Shown here one piece after another: positions 4,034-23,119 of a stretch of DNA of 43,391 nucleotides. The translations under genes and the position numbers were made by a program. A model generated the notes under the pieces. The model saw only the letters and a list, made by a program, of their open reading frames with translations, ran no database searches and had not been told where the DNA came from. Numbering within the stretch: the first letter of the stretch is position 1; each line of letters begins with the position of its first letter. Source of the DNA: Treponema sp. (GTDB lineage Bacteria > Spirochaetota > Spirochaetia > Treponematales > Breznakiellaceae); contig JAISNI010000110.1 of NCBI GenBank assembly GCA_031276295.1, positions 1-43,391 on the forward strand. Reading direction: 5' to 3'.

Positions 4034-5758
4034 ATGGCTGAAGATTACAAAGTACGAGCCTTGGAAGTGGATGATACCTTTCAGATGTGGAGCCCCTACA
4101 AGATGGAACGGGTATTCGAGTTCATGATCCGCAACAACATGAATACCCTCATCTTCCACGAGAACAACATTGTCGACAAGGTTGTCTGGCCCGGTTTCGT
4201 TTACGGCTGCGGGGGGGATGATGACCGCCGCAGTTATTCCATCTACCGGGACAGGCTGTATAAGGAAATATATTACCGTACCCCCAGCCCCTATGTCTTC
4301 ATTGATGAACTCATGATCTTCCGCGATCTGATGAAGACTATTGTGGGCAGAGCCGTGGAACTCGGCCTGGATTTCTACTTCCAACCCAAGGAAATATGGT
4401 TTCCCGAGATACTCTACGAGCGTCAGGACCTCATGAAAAACGGCAAGATGTGTCCCAGCGAACCCTGGTGGTGGGAAATCTTCCTTCCTCAAAAATATGA
4501 GGAACTCATGCAGAACTTCCCCGAGATATCTGGAATCGTTACCTCCACCGGTACCAAGGAAAGCCGCATCAGCCTGGCGCACCAGAAATGCCAATGCGAC
4601 AAATGTAAAGCTATGTCCATGCAGGAGTGGCAGCGCAATGTCATTTTGGCTATCTACGGGCCCCTCAAGACCAGGGGCAAAAAATTGGTTATCCGGGACT
4701 TCTCTTACTACGCCGATGAGCAGAACGGCATACGCGCCGGCCTCCTGGACCTCCCCGATGATATCGTCATCTCCATCAAGAATGTCCCCCAGGATTACTA
4801 CCAAACCTTCCCTCACAACACCCTCATTGGACATGTAGGCAATCACGAACAATGGATCGAGTACGAGACCCTGGGTGAATACTACGGCTGGGGCCTCACC
4901 CCTGTCTCCATGCTTGCCGATATCCACTACCGCATGGACCATTGCCTCAAAAATAAAGCCGACGGCATCTCTACCCGTATTGACTGGGAGGCTCTGCCCA
5001 ACACATCCACCTTCGAGACTCCCAACCAGCTTAACCTCTACGCTATCGCCCAGTTCGCCGTCAACGTGGATACACCCCCGCGGGACATCTACGCCAAATG
5101 GCTGGTAGAAGACAGGCATCTTGAGGAAAACATCAGTTCCGCCCGGTTCAAGGACACCCTGGATTTCGTCATGGGGATATTTGACAAAACCTGGCCCATC
5201 ATGTCCAAGACCCCCTATCTTCTGGGTGCGGTCTTCATGAACAACAGCAAGATACCTGTTAGCATCGACAATGCCGATTTTATCAGCCAGGAACACCACG
5301 GTATCCAGAAATGGTTCCCCCAGTACCGGGATATATTCTCCTACGATGATAACCATGTAGCGGACATGCTCAAGGAGAAGGAGGATGCCTACCGGGAAAT
5401 AATCGTCCTTAACAGGGAATGGCATAGCCGCAATCCCGGACTAGAGGAAGAATTCTACCGAACCTACTGTGATCTGTTTGACATCTTCGAGCTTTACGTG
5501 AAGATGTACCGCCTGGTGGGTAAGAGTTATATCTGGATAAAATACCTGCAAAAGCAGGGGAAGAACACCGCGCTCAAGGGATACGGGGAAATCACTGCCG
5601 AGGTAAAGGAACTTATCGGGGAAATGAAAGCCGTGGAGCAGGAACTGAAAGACCACCGTCCGCCGGTTCAGTTCAGGTACCAGTTCCTTGCCATGATGAA
5701 CAGCGAGCGCCTCCGGGTCTACTATGAGGATGTGGAAGCGGTCCTGCAAAATCTGTAA
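4034..5758 (+). CDS. Putative glycoside hydrolase-like TIM-barrel protein
   Basis: 574 aa, AAGGAGAAG RBS. Text such as NNMNTLIFHENN..., DFYFQPKEIWFPE..., GIVTSTGTKES..., LVIRDFSYYAD... resembles (β/α)8 carbohydrate-active enzymes. Upstream of a sugar ABC transporter. Confidence 0.55.
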   Translation: MAEDYKVRALEVDDTFQMWSPYKMERVFEFMIRNNMNTLIFHENNIVDKVVWPGFVYGCGGDDDRRSYSIYRDRLYKEIYYRTPSPYVFIDELMIFRDLMKTIVGRAVELGLDFYFQPKEIWFPEILYERQDLMKNGKMCPSEPWWWEIFLPQKYEELMQNFPEISGIVTSTGTKESRISLAHQKCQCDKCKAMSMQEWQRNVILAIYGPLKTRGKKLVIRDFSYYADEQNGIRAGLLDLPDDIVISIKNVPQDYYQTFPHNTLIGHVGNHEQWIEYETLGEYYGWGLTPVSMLADIHYRMDHCLKNKADGISTRIDWEALPNTSTFETPNQLNLYAIAQFAVNVDTPPRDIYAKWLVEDRHLEENISSARFKDTLDFVMGIFDKTWPIMSKTPYLLGAVFMNNSKIPVSIDNADFISQEHHGIQKWFPQYRDIFSYDDNHVADMLKEKEDAYREIIVLNREWHSRNPGLEEEFYRTYCDLFDIFELYVKMYRLVGKSYIWIKYLQKQGKNTALKGYGEITAEVKELIGEMKAVEQELKDHRPPVQFRYQFLAMMNSERLRVYYEDVEAVLQNL

Positions 5759-5953
5759 GAAAAAAATTCGGGAAACGGATGCGTTTTCCCTTTCCCGGAC
5801 GGAGGGAAACTTATCCGCGGTGTATGAGGATCCTATGGAATTCATTGAAACTCATGAACTTAATATTTTACAACTTTTGACAAATATTTTCCATGTGATT
5901 TTTTCATATCCGGCGTGAAAATTGTTTACTTAATCTTTATAGGAGATAGAATT

Positions 5954-7255
5954 ATGGAAAAGAAAAGTGTTTTTTTGAGCATTATGTTCCTGTTGGCGGC
6001 GTGTCTGATTTTTGCTGCCGGCGGAAGGGATCAGGGGCGTACACAGAGCGCCGCGGGGCCGGCTAACGTCAAATACGCGTTCTGGGGGTCCCCGGAATCT
6101 ATCGGCGTGGAGGCGGATATTATCGCGGCCTTTGAGGCAAAGCACCCCACTATCAAGATAGAACCGGTGGTTACCGGTTATGCCGATTACCATACAAAAC
6201 TATTAACCATGATTGCAGGAGGGTCCGCGCCGGATTTGATGAGAATTTCCACCCAGTTTTTACCGGATCTGGTTGCCTCCAAAGGTCTTGTTGATATAGG
6301 AAAAATGGCAAAGGAGCATAATTACGATTTGTCCATTTATCTAAAGGAAGGCTTGGAAGACTGTTCCTGGGAAGGGGTCTTATACGGGCTCCCCTGGGGA
6401 ACCGCTCCTGTTTATGCCTTGTTAAACCTGACCATGTTCGAAGAAGCCGGTGTCCCGCCGCCTTCTTATAATTGGACCATAGACGAATTTGTCCGTATTG
6501 TTAAAGCCCTGACCTCCGGGTCCGGAGCCGACAAAAAATACGGTTTCGCTATGGAAATACAGGGGGATCTTTACGGACTCTATCCCTTCCTTTGGGCCAA
6601 TGGCGCGCGGCTTTTGGACGAAAGCAGAAAGACCTTTACCCTTGACAGACCCGAGGCTTATCAGGTTATCCAGATGCTTGCGGATCTTTACCAGGGCGGT
6701 TACATACCCCCTGAAACCCTTATGATAGGAAGCCATAGCGCATCAATGCCTTCCTGGTTTATCAACAACAAACTTGCTATATGCTTGGGAGCCGCTACCA
6801 CCGTTCTGAGCGCCCAAAACGGGGGAGCCAAATTTGGAGTTTGGCCTTTACCTTCGGGCAAAACAACCCATACCACGGTGGTAAAATCAAACACCATAAG
6901 TATGAGCGTTAATTCCAGGTATACCGAAGAAGCATGGCTCTTCTCCACTTTCCTCCGGGGAGATGAGGGAGAAACCCTCTATACCCAGGCAAAGCGGGTA
7001 CCCCCATCAATTGTGGGTGATAAATATTGGGACTACTACCTTGATCCGAATTTATATCCCAAAAATATAAAGGAAGTTACCAATATGATTTTCACCACCA
7101 ACGGTAACCTGGCCCCGATACGCAGGGGGTATCTGGAACTGGAACAGCTTTTAACCCCTGTTATACAGAATGTTATGCTTGGCAATGTTACCGCAGAAAA
7201 GGCCATGAAGGACATCACCCCTCGGGCCCAGGCTATCCTTGACAAGACAAATTAG
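5954..7255 (+). CDS. Extracellular solute-binding protein family 1 (sugar ABC transporter)
   Basis: Lipoprotein-like signal sequence, then VKYAFWGSPESIGVEADIIAAFEAKHPTIKIEPVVTGYADYHTKLLTMIAGGSAPDLMRI, typical of SBP_bac_1. Confidence 0.92.
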   Translation: MEKKSVFLSIMFLLAACLIFAAGGRDQGRTQSAAGPANVKYAFWGSPESIGVEADIIAAFEAKHPTIKIEPVVTGYADYHTKLLTMIAGGSAPDLMRISTQFLPDLVASKGLVDIGKMAKEHNYDLSIYLKEGLEDCSWEGVLYGLPWGTAPVYALLNLTMFEEAGVPPPSYNWTIDEFVRIVKALTSGSGADKKYGFAMEIQGDLYGLYPFLWANGARLLDESRKTFTLDRPEAYQVIQMLADLYQGGYIPPETLMIGSHSASMPSWFINNKLAICLGAATTVLSAQNGGAKFGVWPLPSGKTTHTTVVKSNTISMSVNSRYTEEAWLFSTFLRGDEGETLYTQAKRVPPSIVGDKYWDYYLDPNLYPKNIKEVTNMIFTTNGNLAPIRRGYLELEQLLTPVIQNVMLGNVTAEKAMKDITPRAQAILDKTN

Positions 7256-9974: not shown

Positions 9975-11642
9975 TTGAAAATTTTTAAGAAGATCGATGT
10001 CTTTTTATTTACCTCCGCCGTACTGCTTGTGGTTCTTATTGGGGTCATTACGGTGTTGGTTTTCCGCTTTTTTATCAACGAGCTTATTGAATCCACTATC
10101 AACAATCTTTTTATTAAACAGAATGTTATTGTTAGCGCCATTTCAAAACATCTTGAGGAAGGCCCCAGGATGGTAAGCCAGGTTTTTTCCACCTACAAAG
10201 ATTCGGATCATGAAATTTATGCCCTCCTGATTAAACGCATGAAACACGAGTTCCCCTATTGTAAACTCATGTGGCTTATTATTCAGGACGGGAATGGGAA
10301 TGTCGAGGAATCTATCAGCAACTTTGACTGGGAGCTTAACCCCGCATATATACGGGACAAACGCCGGAAGGATGATATCATTCTGAGTTTTTCCAGCGAT
10401 GGCATCGTTCGTATCGGCAGCCCCTATCGGGATTCCATGAATATCAATACTATTGTCCCCGTTTTCATTGATCATTATAAAGATTTTGAGATCAGGGCCA
10501 CCCTTTTTCTTGAGATTAATATTTCAGAACTGCTTTACGACGCTAAACGGAACATTGTTGATTCTTTCGATACCCTTTCCGGAGAATATGAGGTTTGCCT
10601 TTATGCCCAGAACATGGATTTGGTTGAAACTTCGGAGAACTATCCGGTTGTGAGGGTGTTTTCCGTTTTAACCCGTGAGGGGATGCTTGAGGGTTTATCG
10701 GACAGAGAGATGCTCAAGCTCAGGTCCTTTGCAGAATACCACCGTATTGCCGGGGAAATGATAGAATTATACAGTCTCTCTCCCACAGGGCATATTATCA
10801 GAGGAACGATCCCCTATAGTCTTATTCTATCGAAGGTGAGGTCCCTTATTTTAGTTATCATAGGCATCGGCCTTATTGCCCTGGCTCTTTTGCTGATTGT
10901 AGGCCAGACATCAATTCATTACCGGCAGGTTAAGGAAAAAGAAATACAGTTACAGATAGAGACTTTGCAAGCCAAACTTGATCCTCATTTTTTGTTTAAT
11001 ATCCTTAACAGTATGGTGGGCCTTGTGGTTGATAATAACAATGAATGTTTGTTACGGTCCTTTAAGTCCCTTTCTGTTTTACTGAGGTCCAGTATAGCCA
11101 TTAAGGATAATCATATACCCCTCCGCGAGGAGTTAGACTATATAGATAACTATGTCGATATCCAGCGCTTACGTTTTGAAAACGAATTCGAATATTCCGT
11201 TATTATCGAAGATGAATCGCTTTTGGATCTTAGTATTCCCCGGTTCAGTATCCAGCCTATTATTGAAAACTGTTTTGTTCATGCCGTTGCGGTTAATGAA
11301 GAGGAGGAGAAAATAATTTATATCCGCCTCGGGGTAAAACGGGAAAACAAACTGATGTTTATTGATATATGCAATAACGGCGCCCCCTGTATGGAGGAGA
11401 AAAACAAACTAAAACAGAGCTTTAAGACCAATGTTGAGACAAATTCGGGAGGGCGTATCGGGCTTACCCTGATTAATAAGGAAATCAAACTCCTCTACGG
11501 GGGTAAATTCGGCCTTGAGATACTCGATACCGCACCCGATATATTTTCAGTCAGGATAAAACTTCCCGCCTCCTTTAACCCGGACCATAGACTTGAGGTC
11601 CGACACCGTCTTTTCCAACGGCGCCGGGATAACCGCCCTTGA
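9975..11642 (+). CDS. Sensor histidine kinase, YesM-like
   Basis: Two TM segments, QIETLQAKLDPHFLFNILNSM (His_kinase family H-box), PIIENCFVHAV N-box. Confidence 0.92.
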   Translation: MKIFKKIDVFLFTSAVLLVVLIGVITVLVFRFFINELIESTINNLFIKQNVIVSAISKHLEEGPRMVSQVFSTYKDSDHEIYALLIKRMKHEFPYCKLMWLIIQDGNGNVEESISNFDWELNPAYIRDKRRKDDIILSFSSDGIVRIGSPYRDSMNINTIVPVFIDHYKDFEIRATLFLEINISELLYDAKRNIVDSFDTLSGEYEVCLYAQNMDLVETSENYPVVRVFSVLTREGMLEGLSDREMLKLRSFAEYHRIAGEMIELYSLSPTGHIIRGTIPYSLILSKVRSLILVIIGIGLIALALLLIVGQTSIHYRQVKEKEIQLQIETLQAKLDPHFLFNILNSMVGLVVDNNNECLLRSFKSLSVLLRSSIAIKDNHIPLREELDYIDNYVDIQRLRFENEFEYSVIIEDESLLDLSIPRFSIQPIIENCFVHAVAVNEEEEKIIYIRLGVKRENKLMFIDICNNGAPCMEEKNKLKQSFKTNVETNSGGRIGLTLINKEIKLLYGGKFGLEILDTAPDIFSVRIKLPASFNPDHRLEVRHRLFQRRRDNRP

Positions 11643-11648
11643 TTGGAA

Positions 11649-11797
11649 GGCCGGGTACATACCCCGGAGCTTACTCCGGAAATTTCCCACCACAGAAAAT
11701 GTTGTAATCTGATTTTCGGATCGGGGTATGTACCCGGCCGGTATAATAAATTTCCTATCCAACGAAGCTACCCAGGAGCTTGCTCCTGGGTAGCTTC
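11649..11797. repeat. Bipartite structured intergenic element, copy A
   Basis: 18-bp perfect IR (11649-11666/11722-11739) enclosing a ccggagcttactccgg hairpin; then taataaatttcctatccaacga; then a 34-nt palindrome gaagctacccaggagc-tt-gctcctgggtagcttc (11764-11797). Confidence 0.85.
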
Positions 11798-11826
11798 ATT
11801 TGTGTATGCGCCGCCCAAGGGCAACC

Positions 11827-11944
11827 TATCCGGCCGCCGGTTTCCAACAGCCCCGATAATCGGGATTTTTTGCATAAAGCGGACCAAAGGTCCGATGCAA
11901 AAAATCCACAAGTACCAACAGGCTGCCAGAACGCCGGCCGGATA
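11827..11944. repeat. Nested inverted-repeat structure
   Basis: Outer arms tatccggccg/cggccggata (11827-11836/11935-11944); inner ggattttttgcat/atgcaaaaaatcc (11863-11875/11895-11907) around cggacc-aaa-ggtccg. Confidence 0.75.
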
Positions 11945-12052
11945 AGTTGTAAAAATGCCGCCGATAGTAAACCGGAAAACTTGGGGAGCCGGCCTCTTTC
12001 GGATACTCCCCATCCTTCACTACGGAACCGTCCTCCGCTCTGCCGGCGCCAG

Positions 12053-18473: not shown

Positions 18474-18497
18474 AAACGTATCTCCTTTTATTCGAAA

Positions 18498-18658
18498 GTC
18501 TGGTTTAATACCCCGGAGCTCTGCTCCGGCTGAAATAAAGCAACGCTTTCAAAAATTTGGTATTAAACCAGACAGTCTAATAAATTTCCTATCGAACGAG
18601 CCTCCGGTTGAACTAACGCAACGCTAAAGATATCGCGGAGCTCTGCTCCACGGAGGCT
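18498..18658. repeat. Bipartite structured intergenic element, copy B
   Basis: 15-bp perfect IR gtctggtttaatacc/ggtattaaaccagac (18498-18512/18559-18573) enclosing ccggagctctgctccgg; then taataaatttcctatcgaacga; then stem agcctccg/cggaggct enclosing gcggagctctgctcc. Confidence 0.85.
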
Positions 18659-18860
18659 TATTCTTATAAATAATAAGTATTTAATCATATATTAAATACA
18701 TAGAATTAGTCAATGTATATTTTTACAAAATTTGAAGAAAAACCCTACCGGAGGAGGTCGGTGGAAGCCGTAACATCCGCCGCCTCGGTAACATTTTTGG
18801 TGAGGCGGTGCGTATTCTTGTCCGGGTTTTCACTTTCTGGTACAATTTGACCAACATACG

Positions 18861-22245: not shown

Positions 22246-23031
22246 TTAAAGAGCGATGATACTCTTTGCGATAAGCTGGGCAAGAGCGTACTTTCTTTCC
22301 TGGGTAACTCCGGAATCGTGGCGGAGAAAGGTTTCAAGCTGGGCACAGAAGGAATCGGGAAGGATAGGAAGCTCAAGCGCTTGCCGGTAATAGGCGCGGT
22401 GGCCCGGCTCAAAACGACGGTTAATGCAGAAAAGGACAAGGCACGCGTATTTAATAAAGAGAGCCGACGAGATGAGGTAATAGTAATCGTCCCCCTGGAA
22501 CAGGGCAGCGCCGAGGTCATTCAGGGCATGTTCCATCTTGGATTCGTGAACAAAACGCATCTCCAGCCAGAAGTCTTCGTTCAGGTTTTCGAGCCTCCGC
22601 CGTATGCCTCCAATCCAGCCGCTCCTGTCGTACAGTATCTCTCCATAGGCCAGACGGTAATAACCGTAGGTTCCCGAATCCTTAATAAGCCAGAGGCTGT
22701 CAAGTTTCGTATCGGCAAAGTTTATAAGTTCTTCTATATTAGAGACAGCTTTATACTCCATCCTGACCGGTATATTACCGATGAGGAAGCGATCCTTGTT
22801 TTCCCTGCCCGATGTTTCAAAGGCAGACACATCGGTGCCGAACAGCTTCCGCCTCTCTTCGCTTCCGGGGATAGTATCCGTACAAAAAACATCAAGGATA
22901 AGGGCAAAATAGGGATCCAGGGTATCCTCAAGCGCAGCTTCATTCAGGCTTATACATTCAACCCCCGGCCATTGGGAGAGCGTGCCGGTAAAACGGTCCG
23001 CAAGCAATTTGGTCTTATGTTTCATTATCAT
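22246..23031 (-). CDS. Conserved hypothetical, possibly DUF4037/nucleotidyltransferase-like
   Basis: FALILDVFCTDTIP..RKLFG..IPVRMEYKAV layout and C-terminal helices; weak recognition only. Confidence 0.4.
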   Translation of the reverse strand: MIMKHKTKLLADRFTGTLSQWPGVECISLNEAALEDTLDPYFALILDVFCTDTIPGSEERRKLFGTDVSAFETSGRENKDRFLIGNIPVRMEYKAVSNIEELINFADTKLDSLWLIKDSGTYGYYRLAYGEILYDRSGWIGGIRRRLENLNEDFWLEMRFVHESKMEHALNDLGAALFQGDDYYYLISSALFIKYACLVLFCINRRFEPGHRAYYRQALELPILPDSFCAQLETFLRHDSGVTQERKYALAQLIAKSIIAL

Positions 23032-23119
23032 TCCCCTCGGACGAAGATACTCAGGAACTTGCTCCCGGGTTCTTCAGTAGTATACAATACCTCTTTATGA
23101 ATATACTGAAAAATACTGA

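Follow-up and report, generated by a model that had tools for sequence, protein, structure and literature searches.

The 43,391-nt stretch of Treponema DNA analysed here (the window) carries two copies, A and B, of a structured repeat, together with a probable relic of it. Copy A lies directly behind a histidine-kinase gene (ORF 9975-11642, His_kinase), and the target motif at which it begins, TTGATT, contains the stop codon TGA. Copy B adjoins an NMT1-type binding-protein gene on the opposite strand (Pfam NMT1; ATG 18473), just upstream of its ribosome-binding site. A covariance model of the element puts copy A at 11639-11800 (138.4 bits, E 7.8e-29) and copy B at 18487-18662 (177.2 bits, E 2.6e-37), both spans including the 6-nt left target motif. 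The features are as follows:

11639..11644, + strand: left target motif TTGATT of copy A, host DNA (sequence; target logo)
11645..11800, + strand: copy A, type 1, GGAAGG...CTTCATT (covariance-model match, alignment of copies)
11643..11647, + strand: 5' strand of helix P1 of copy A, TTGGA, pairing with TCCAA at 11758-11762 (covarying helix 1)
11649..11739, + strand: hairpin HP1 of copy A, outer arms 11649-11663/11725-11739 around smaller hairpins (helix 2; inverted repeat)
11744..11765, + strand: conserved linker of copy A, TAATAAATTTCCTATCCAACGA (15 genomic copies, 0 in control)
11761..11800, + strand: hairpin HP2 and right end of copy A, ...CTTCATT (helix 3; inverted repeat)
18487..18492, + strand: left target motif TTTATT of copy B, host DNA (sequence; target logo)
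18493..18662, + strand: copy B, type 2, CGAAAG...GGCTTATT (covariance-model match; empty homologous site)
18491..18495, + strand: 5' strand of P1 of copy B, TTCGA, pairing with TCGAA at 18592-18596 (covariation)
18578..18599, + strand: linker of copy B (linker pattern search)
23041..23077, + strand: probable relic, HP2 end alone, GACGAAGATACTCAGGAACTTGCTCCCGGGTTCTTCA (covariance-model match 22993-23078, E 7.5e-5; sequence)

The original prediction had placed the two copies at 11649-11797 and 18498-18658, which locates them correctly and cuts them slightly short. The architecture that it described as common to both is present, the linkers are identical at 21 of 22 positions, and the 15-nt outer arms (11649-11663/11725-11739 in A, 18498-18512/18559-18573 in B) differ at five positions and pair perfectly in each copy; P1 is an additional helix that was absent from that description. 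Immediately 3' of copy A lies another palindromic repeat (11822-11949), whose arms are 11822-11839/11932-11949 and whose inner part reads CCACAAGTACCAACAGGCTGCCAG. Several relatives contain matches to it; pieces like it (CTAGCAG...CTGCTAG) occur at L005, L011 and L175.

Alignment of bounded copies reveals a common order of parts: the host target TTGATT or TTTATT, SGAARG, HP1, GGTA, the linker ATAAAYTTCCTATCSAACGA and HP2. HP1, a long hairpin of variable length with inner hairpins, starts 4-5 nt from the left end, and HP2 finishes at the right end, which reads CTTCRTT in type 1 (copy A) and GGCTCATT in type 2 (copy B, with GGCTTATT). P1 joins the left end TTSGA to TCSAA in the linker, its variable pair being G-C in copy A but C-G in copy B. 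The 71 bounded copies span 61-316 nt, too short for a transposase gene, and the unit is about 113-170 nt long and contains no internal gene. No terminal inverted repeats were found when the ends were compared across copies, SGAARG... and ...CTTCATT/GCTCATT not being inverted copies of each other. Folded as single-stranded DNA, copy A reaches a z-score of -11.2 and copy B of -7.5, and none of 200 shuffles folds as well. In many copies (L028, L031, L035, L040, L050-L052, L058, L063, L123, L137), the HP1 3' arm has its base replaced by a second palindromic module (AAGAACCCGC..GCGGGGGAGGGTA), which also occurs alone.

Covariation was assessed on 44 distinct copies, whose excised arms were joined into a composite alignment; copies with the replaced HP1 arm were left out. 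In three helices comprising 28 pairs, 95.1% of the cells are paired and 19 of the 28 pairs show double-sided changes; the covariation score is 0.405, versus 0.119 for shuffled alignments and at most 0.073 for slid controls, which preserve the relatedness among copies whereas shuffles do not. P1 (helix 1) is paired in 99.1% of cells, and 13 of the 15 pairs of the HP1 outer arms (helix 2) have changed on both sides. The variable pair of P1 is C-G in 26 and G-C in 16 copies, but this is mostly the difference between type 1 and type 2 and thus reflects few evolutionary events. Non-Watson-Crick cells (21 G-T versus 13 A-C, p 0.23) favour neither strand, nor RNA over DNA.

The compensated changes between A and B had been taken to imply selection on a folded nucleic acid; a conserved fold is borne out by the 44 copies, but "imply" is too strong. 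Template switching can create hairpins and keep them perfect (PMC8794818), and covariation alone is for this reason no proof of selection on the fold. The compensated changes could alternatively result from the correction of DNA hairpins by template switching, without selection for a fold, a rival account of the covariation and not of mobility: inner hairpins vary widely yet remain perfect, and G-T intermediates are few. Against this, the P1 segments, about 115 nt apart, covary between types, for which a simple hairpin switch is inadequate, though this is mainly one change. We regard such an origin as possible, if somewhat unlikely. The covariation supports a conserved fold, without by itself proving selection on RNA.

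The linker pattern matches 15 times in the window's genome (8 forward, 7 reverse) and its reversed control not once, so copies A and B belong to a repeat family; the whole element has about 16 strong matches there. Further copies with covariation, which the original prediction had set beforehand as its test, are therefore present. In the window's family, where scoring covered up to 23 candidates per genome, at least 73 of 120 genomes match the covariance model at E<=1e-5. At the level of the order, matches occur in 57 of 197 genomes, three further families included, and a phylum-wide draw of 198 genomes yielded no match to the model outside the order. Named carrier records are termite-gut-type Treponema/Spirochaetaceae MAGs, whose termite origin we infer from isolate and literature context. 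A shorter homologue (~113 nt; TTTATT/CGTGCGGAGGGTTTAATACCCC...GGGGTTGTTGATT, the slash marking the junction here and below) is found 7-25 times per complete genome of family f3, to which the T. denticola group belongs; the complete genome G195 of this group we take to be T. denticola ATCC 35405. Zixiibacteriota, Pelagibacteraceae and one viral contig also yielded exact pattern matches (L060, L118, L156), but these are without the structure and were judged to be chance, and a carrier contig labelled "Tannerellaceae" (L105) is probably mis-binned. The copies are scattered between unrelated genes, in either orientation, and clustering of the neighbouring genes returned ordinary genes of no common class. 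Two copies in G195 (L317, L321) lie directly behind the ends of 5S rRNA-like genes. A scan of the window with Rfam 15 at the gathering score returned a tRNA alone and no match to the element, and our literature search found no description of it. The family is thus undescribed in the literature searched, and its members are palindrome-associated miniature mobile elements.

Mobility is seen at empty sites, which were sought by searching the joined flanks of copies in relatives. The site homologous to that of copy B is empty in genome G014 (69% identity), and that of a termite copy (L015) is empty in a congeneric genome (84% across 298 nt). Another copy (L006) interrupts a uvrA-type remnant and introduces stop codons; its joined flanks read IVDLGSGAGEKGGEIVAQGT, and excising 153 nt restores ...QADYIVDLGSGAGEKGGEIVAQGT with uninterrupted coding that aligns to uncut uvrA elsewhere. 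In the T. denticola group, five sites with TTTATT/x or TTGATT/x are uninterrupted in relatives at 87-94% identity (for example L327 versus L330, TTTGATT/TAATCACC), and in the empty alleles the target is already there, continuous with the right flank. At L322 the empty form TTTTTATT/TGCACTTT is found in four related gene copies, and removal of the element restores uninterrupted coding in the gene family. Since the empty alleles carry the intact motif, the element lands immediately 3' of a TTTAT(T) or TTGAT(T) already in place, and a duplication of the target is not detectable; the element lacks terminal inverted repeats and encodes no transposase. A 2-bp duplication (TT) is compatible with the uvrA site taken alone, and with sites whose flanking bases are T. 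Two T. denticola-group copies (L322, L325) occupy an identical position in genes of one strongly amplified family (FYQAAIDISFLDKG...SFIIFICTFDAIGK), which presumably resembles the Rpn/PD-(D/E)XK group.

The empty orthologous sites largely refute the idea of a stationary structured RNA, be it a regulatory RNA, a riboswitch or a terminator, selected at many loci. Strong covariation in three helices and stable folds would suit such an RNA, but the element is also found inserted into coding sequence, its neighbours share no common class, no Rfam family matches it and G-T and A-C cells are not asymmetric, and we consider this explanation very improbable. Copies A and B are mobile-element insertions at target motifs and not two cases of a locus-bound structured RNA; both are probably ordinary insertions in tolerated sites. 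A classical MITE moved by a DDE transposase would likewise be short, non-coding and multi-copy, but terminal inverted repeats are missing, the target motif stands on the left side only and the empty sites are without duplication (none >2 bp), which refutes this reading and makes it hardly credible.

The target preference is one-sided. Its logo holds 1.3-2 bits at positions -5 to -1, about 1 bit at -6 and close to 0 further out and in the right flank; part of this left-hand sharpness is inflated in the termite set, where the search pattern demanded ATT, ACT or CTT at -3 to -1, while positions -6 to -4 and the whole T. denticola set are free of that constraint. Two bacterial families share this left target, and the +1 base is T in 36 of 43 type-2 copies. 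Head-to-tail tandems have the common junction CATT/CGAAAG and probably arise because the right end resembles the target. The element strand coincides somewhat more often with the G-rich strand, which is the lagging-strand template, than with its complement (118:85, from 41:25 + 77:60; combined p 0.024). This is a weak and post hoc bias, in the direction expected for the active strand of an IS200/IS605 element, which is not significant by GC skew in the termite loci alone and which may reflect gene orientation.

These properties recall the IS200/IS605 family. ISDra2 inserts 3' of TTGAT (PMC2806898), and IS608 and ISDra2 both show a +1 base preference (PMC5934647); the treponeme element shares with them insertion 3' of a short fixed motif, the lack of duplication, subterminal hairpins and the +1 preference (PMC2806898, PMC5934647), but differs in that it has neither tnpA nor tnpB, measures ~113-170 nt as a whole, ends on the right in a target-like sequence and occurs in several hosts in which no Y1 transposase is detectable. 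As far as insertion goes, its behaviour is by analogy IS200/IS605-like. A close structural description is that of the Haloquadratum PATEs (PMC3119063), with which the element agrees on four structural points of the definition: it lacks terminal inverted repeats, has its palindromes close to the ends, makes no detectable target duplication and is too short for a transposase. PATEs likewise keep the target oligonucleotide at one end, and in both cases small repeats are often nested in palindromes (PMC3119063). Unlike PATEs, which share their palindromes with resident IS605-type elements, the treponeme element has no resident autonomous partner among the Y1 loci fetched, and it possesses an extra helix linking the left end to the linker.

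Transposition of REP/BIME-type repeats by RAYT transposases offers another comparison, as these, too, are dispersed palindromes moved on single strands (PMC8266576), and RAYT-like Y1 genes are present in G001, G025 and G035. The CGTC families are furthermore also without a dedicated transposase (PMC8266576, PMC3733652). The treponeme unit, however, is larger than a REP, has two hairpins, carries no GTAG or CGTC tag at its boundary where the ends were read, and uses a fixed TTNAT target, which is not a known REP feature (GTAG and CGTC families; PMC8266576, PMC3733652). Since the RAYT-like genes are moreover flanked by another repeat, containing GGGACAGAG, and complete copy-rich genomes give no Y1 match, we judge a RAYT-moved REP to be quite improbable, and these genes were rejected as partners. 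Their loci (L158, L159, L162) carry that repeat as their own, and L158 has a remnant of the element inside it.

A single case, L044, is reminiscent of the Rickettsia palindromic elements: here the element (6231-6389) lies antisense within a UvrD/PcrA helicase gene (4850-6961, minus strand), in frame over 53 codons and between two parts of the UvrD_C domain, and the ORF stays open; the L006 insertion, by contrast, brings stop codons.

The enzyme that moves the element was sought among the Y1 transposases. No Y1 transposase (PF01797, E<=0.01) was detected in six complete or near-complete genomes (G195, G183, G037, G040, G174, G275), in each of which the element occurs 7-25 times, nor, at E<=1e-6, in ten termite MAGs that carry 10 or more copies, these MAGs being incomplete. 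Among genomes of the termite family, carrying a Y1 gene is not associated with carrying the element (44/29 versus 23/24, Fisher p 0.26). No autonomous copy with the element's ends was found among the Y1 loci fetched, no transposase is enriched beside copies, and TnpB (PF07282) gave nothing above the cut-off in seven genomes. Because no Y1 gene was found in complete genomes with 7-25 copies, we do not file the element as a member of IS200/IS605. Loci without a left end might have marked where a longer autonomous element stops on the right, but no transposase lies upstream of them. A Y1-like gene present in nine copies in the window's genome (L160, L164, L166, L168, L170-L174) was rejected as a partner, its ends differing from those of the element; the HUH motif appears to be lost from the copies read (WVDLYV in place of the HIHL of RAYT relatives), and the gene is possibly an inactive or repurposed transposase.

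The lack of a Y1 match where copies are abundant leaves room for an enzyme of another kind: an unknown or diverged HUH protein, an IS91/Helitron-like or IS110 bridge-RNA type system, or a reverse-transcribed RNA, for example a group II-like derivative. Group II introns start with GUGYG, similar to the CGTGCG at the start of the T. denticola-group element, and tandem arrays, as well as copies directly behind terminator-like hairpins, would also agree with such a system. However, a hairpin-plus-T-run target as in group IIC introns was tried and rejected, hairpins upstream of insertions being no commoner than at other TTKATT sites (p 0.44, 0.73); no domain V-like motif was seen, and the termite copies lack the GUGYG start. 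We hold a different kind of enzyme to be rather unlikely.

The explanation that we consider fairly likely is that the element is a non-autonomous mobile DNA which folds on one strand, with P1 around HP1 followed by HP2 at the right end, and is moved by a transposase acting in trans. This transposase would recognise the folded single strand and cut on the left after TTNAT in the flank and on the right after a TTNAT/CTCAT of similar sequence in the right end of the element itself; the ends would then be joined into a circle, which would insert behind another TTNAT in the manner of IS608 and ISDra2. In the IS200/IS605 family, guide sequences located 5' of the two hairpins base-pair with the sites of cleavage. 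Here the left junction is paired with the linker through P1, and AACGA is able to pair with the right end, a geometry unlike that of the IS608 guides. More tentatively, and with a rather low probability, the element could represent an order-wide treponeme family of miniature, single-strand-type elements whose mover is other than the known Y1 transposases and whose target is set by the pairing between linker and left junction.

The mobiliser missing from complete genomes poses a puzzle parallel to that of the CGTC repeats without a dedicated transposase. Hundreds of copies are present in termite-gut and T. denticola-group treponemes, where neither an Rfam match nor a published description was found to account for them. 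They probably break metagenome contigs, and through insertion at TTNAT sites in and beside genes they shape the genomes of these treponemes.
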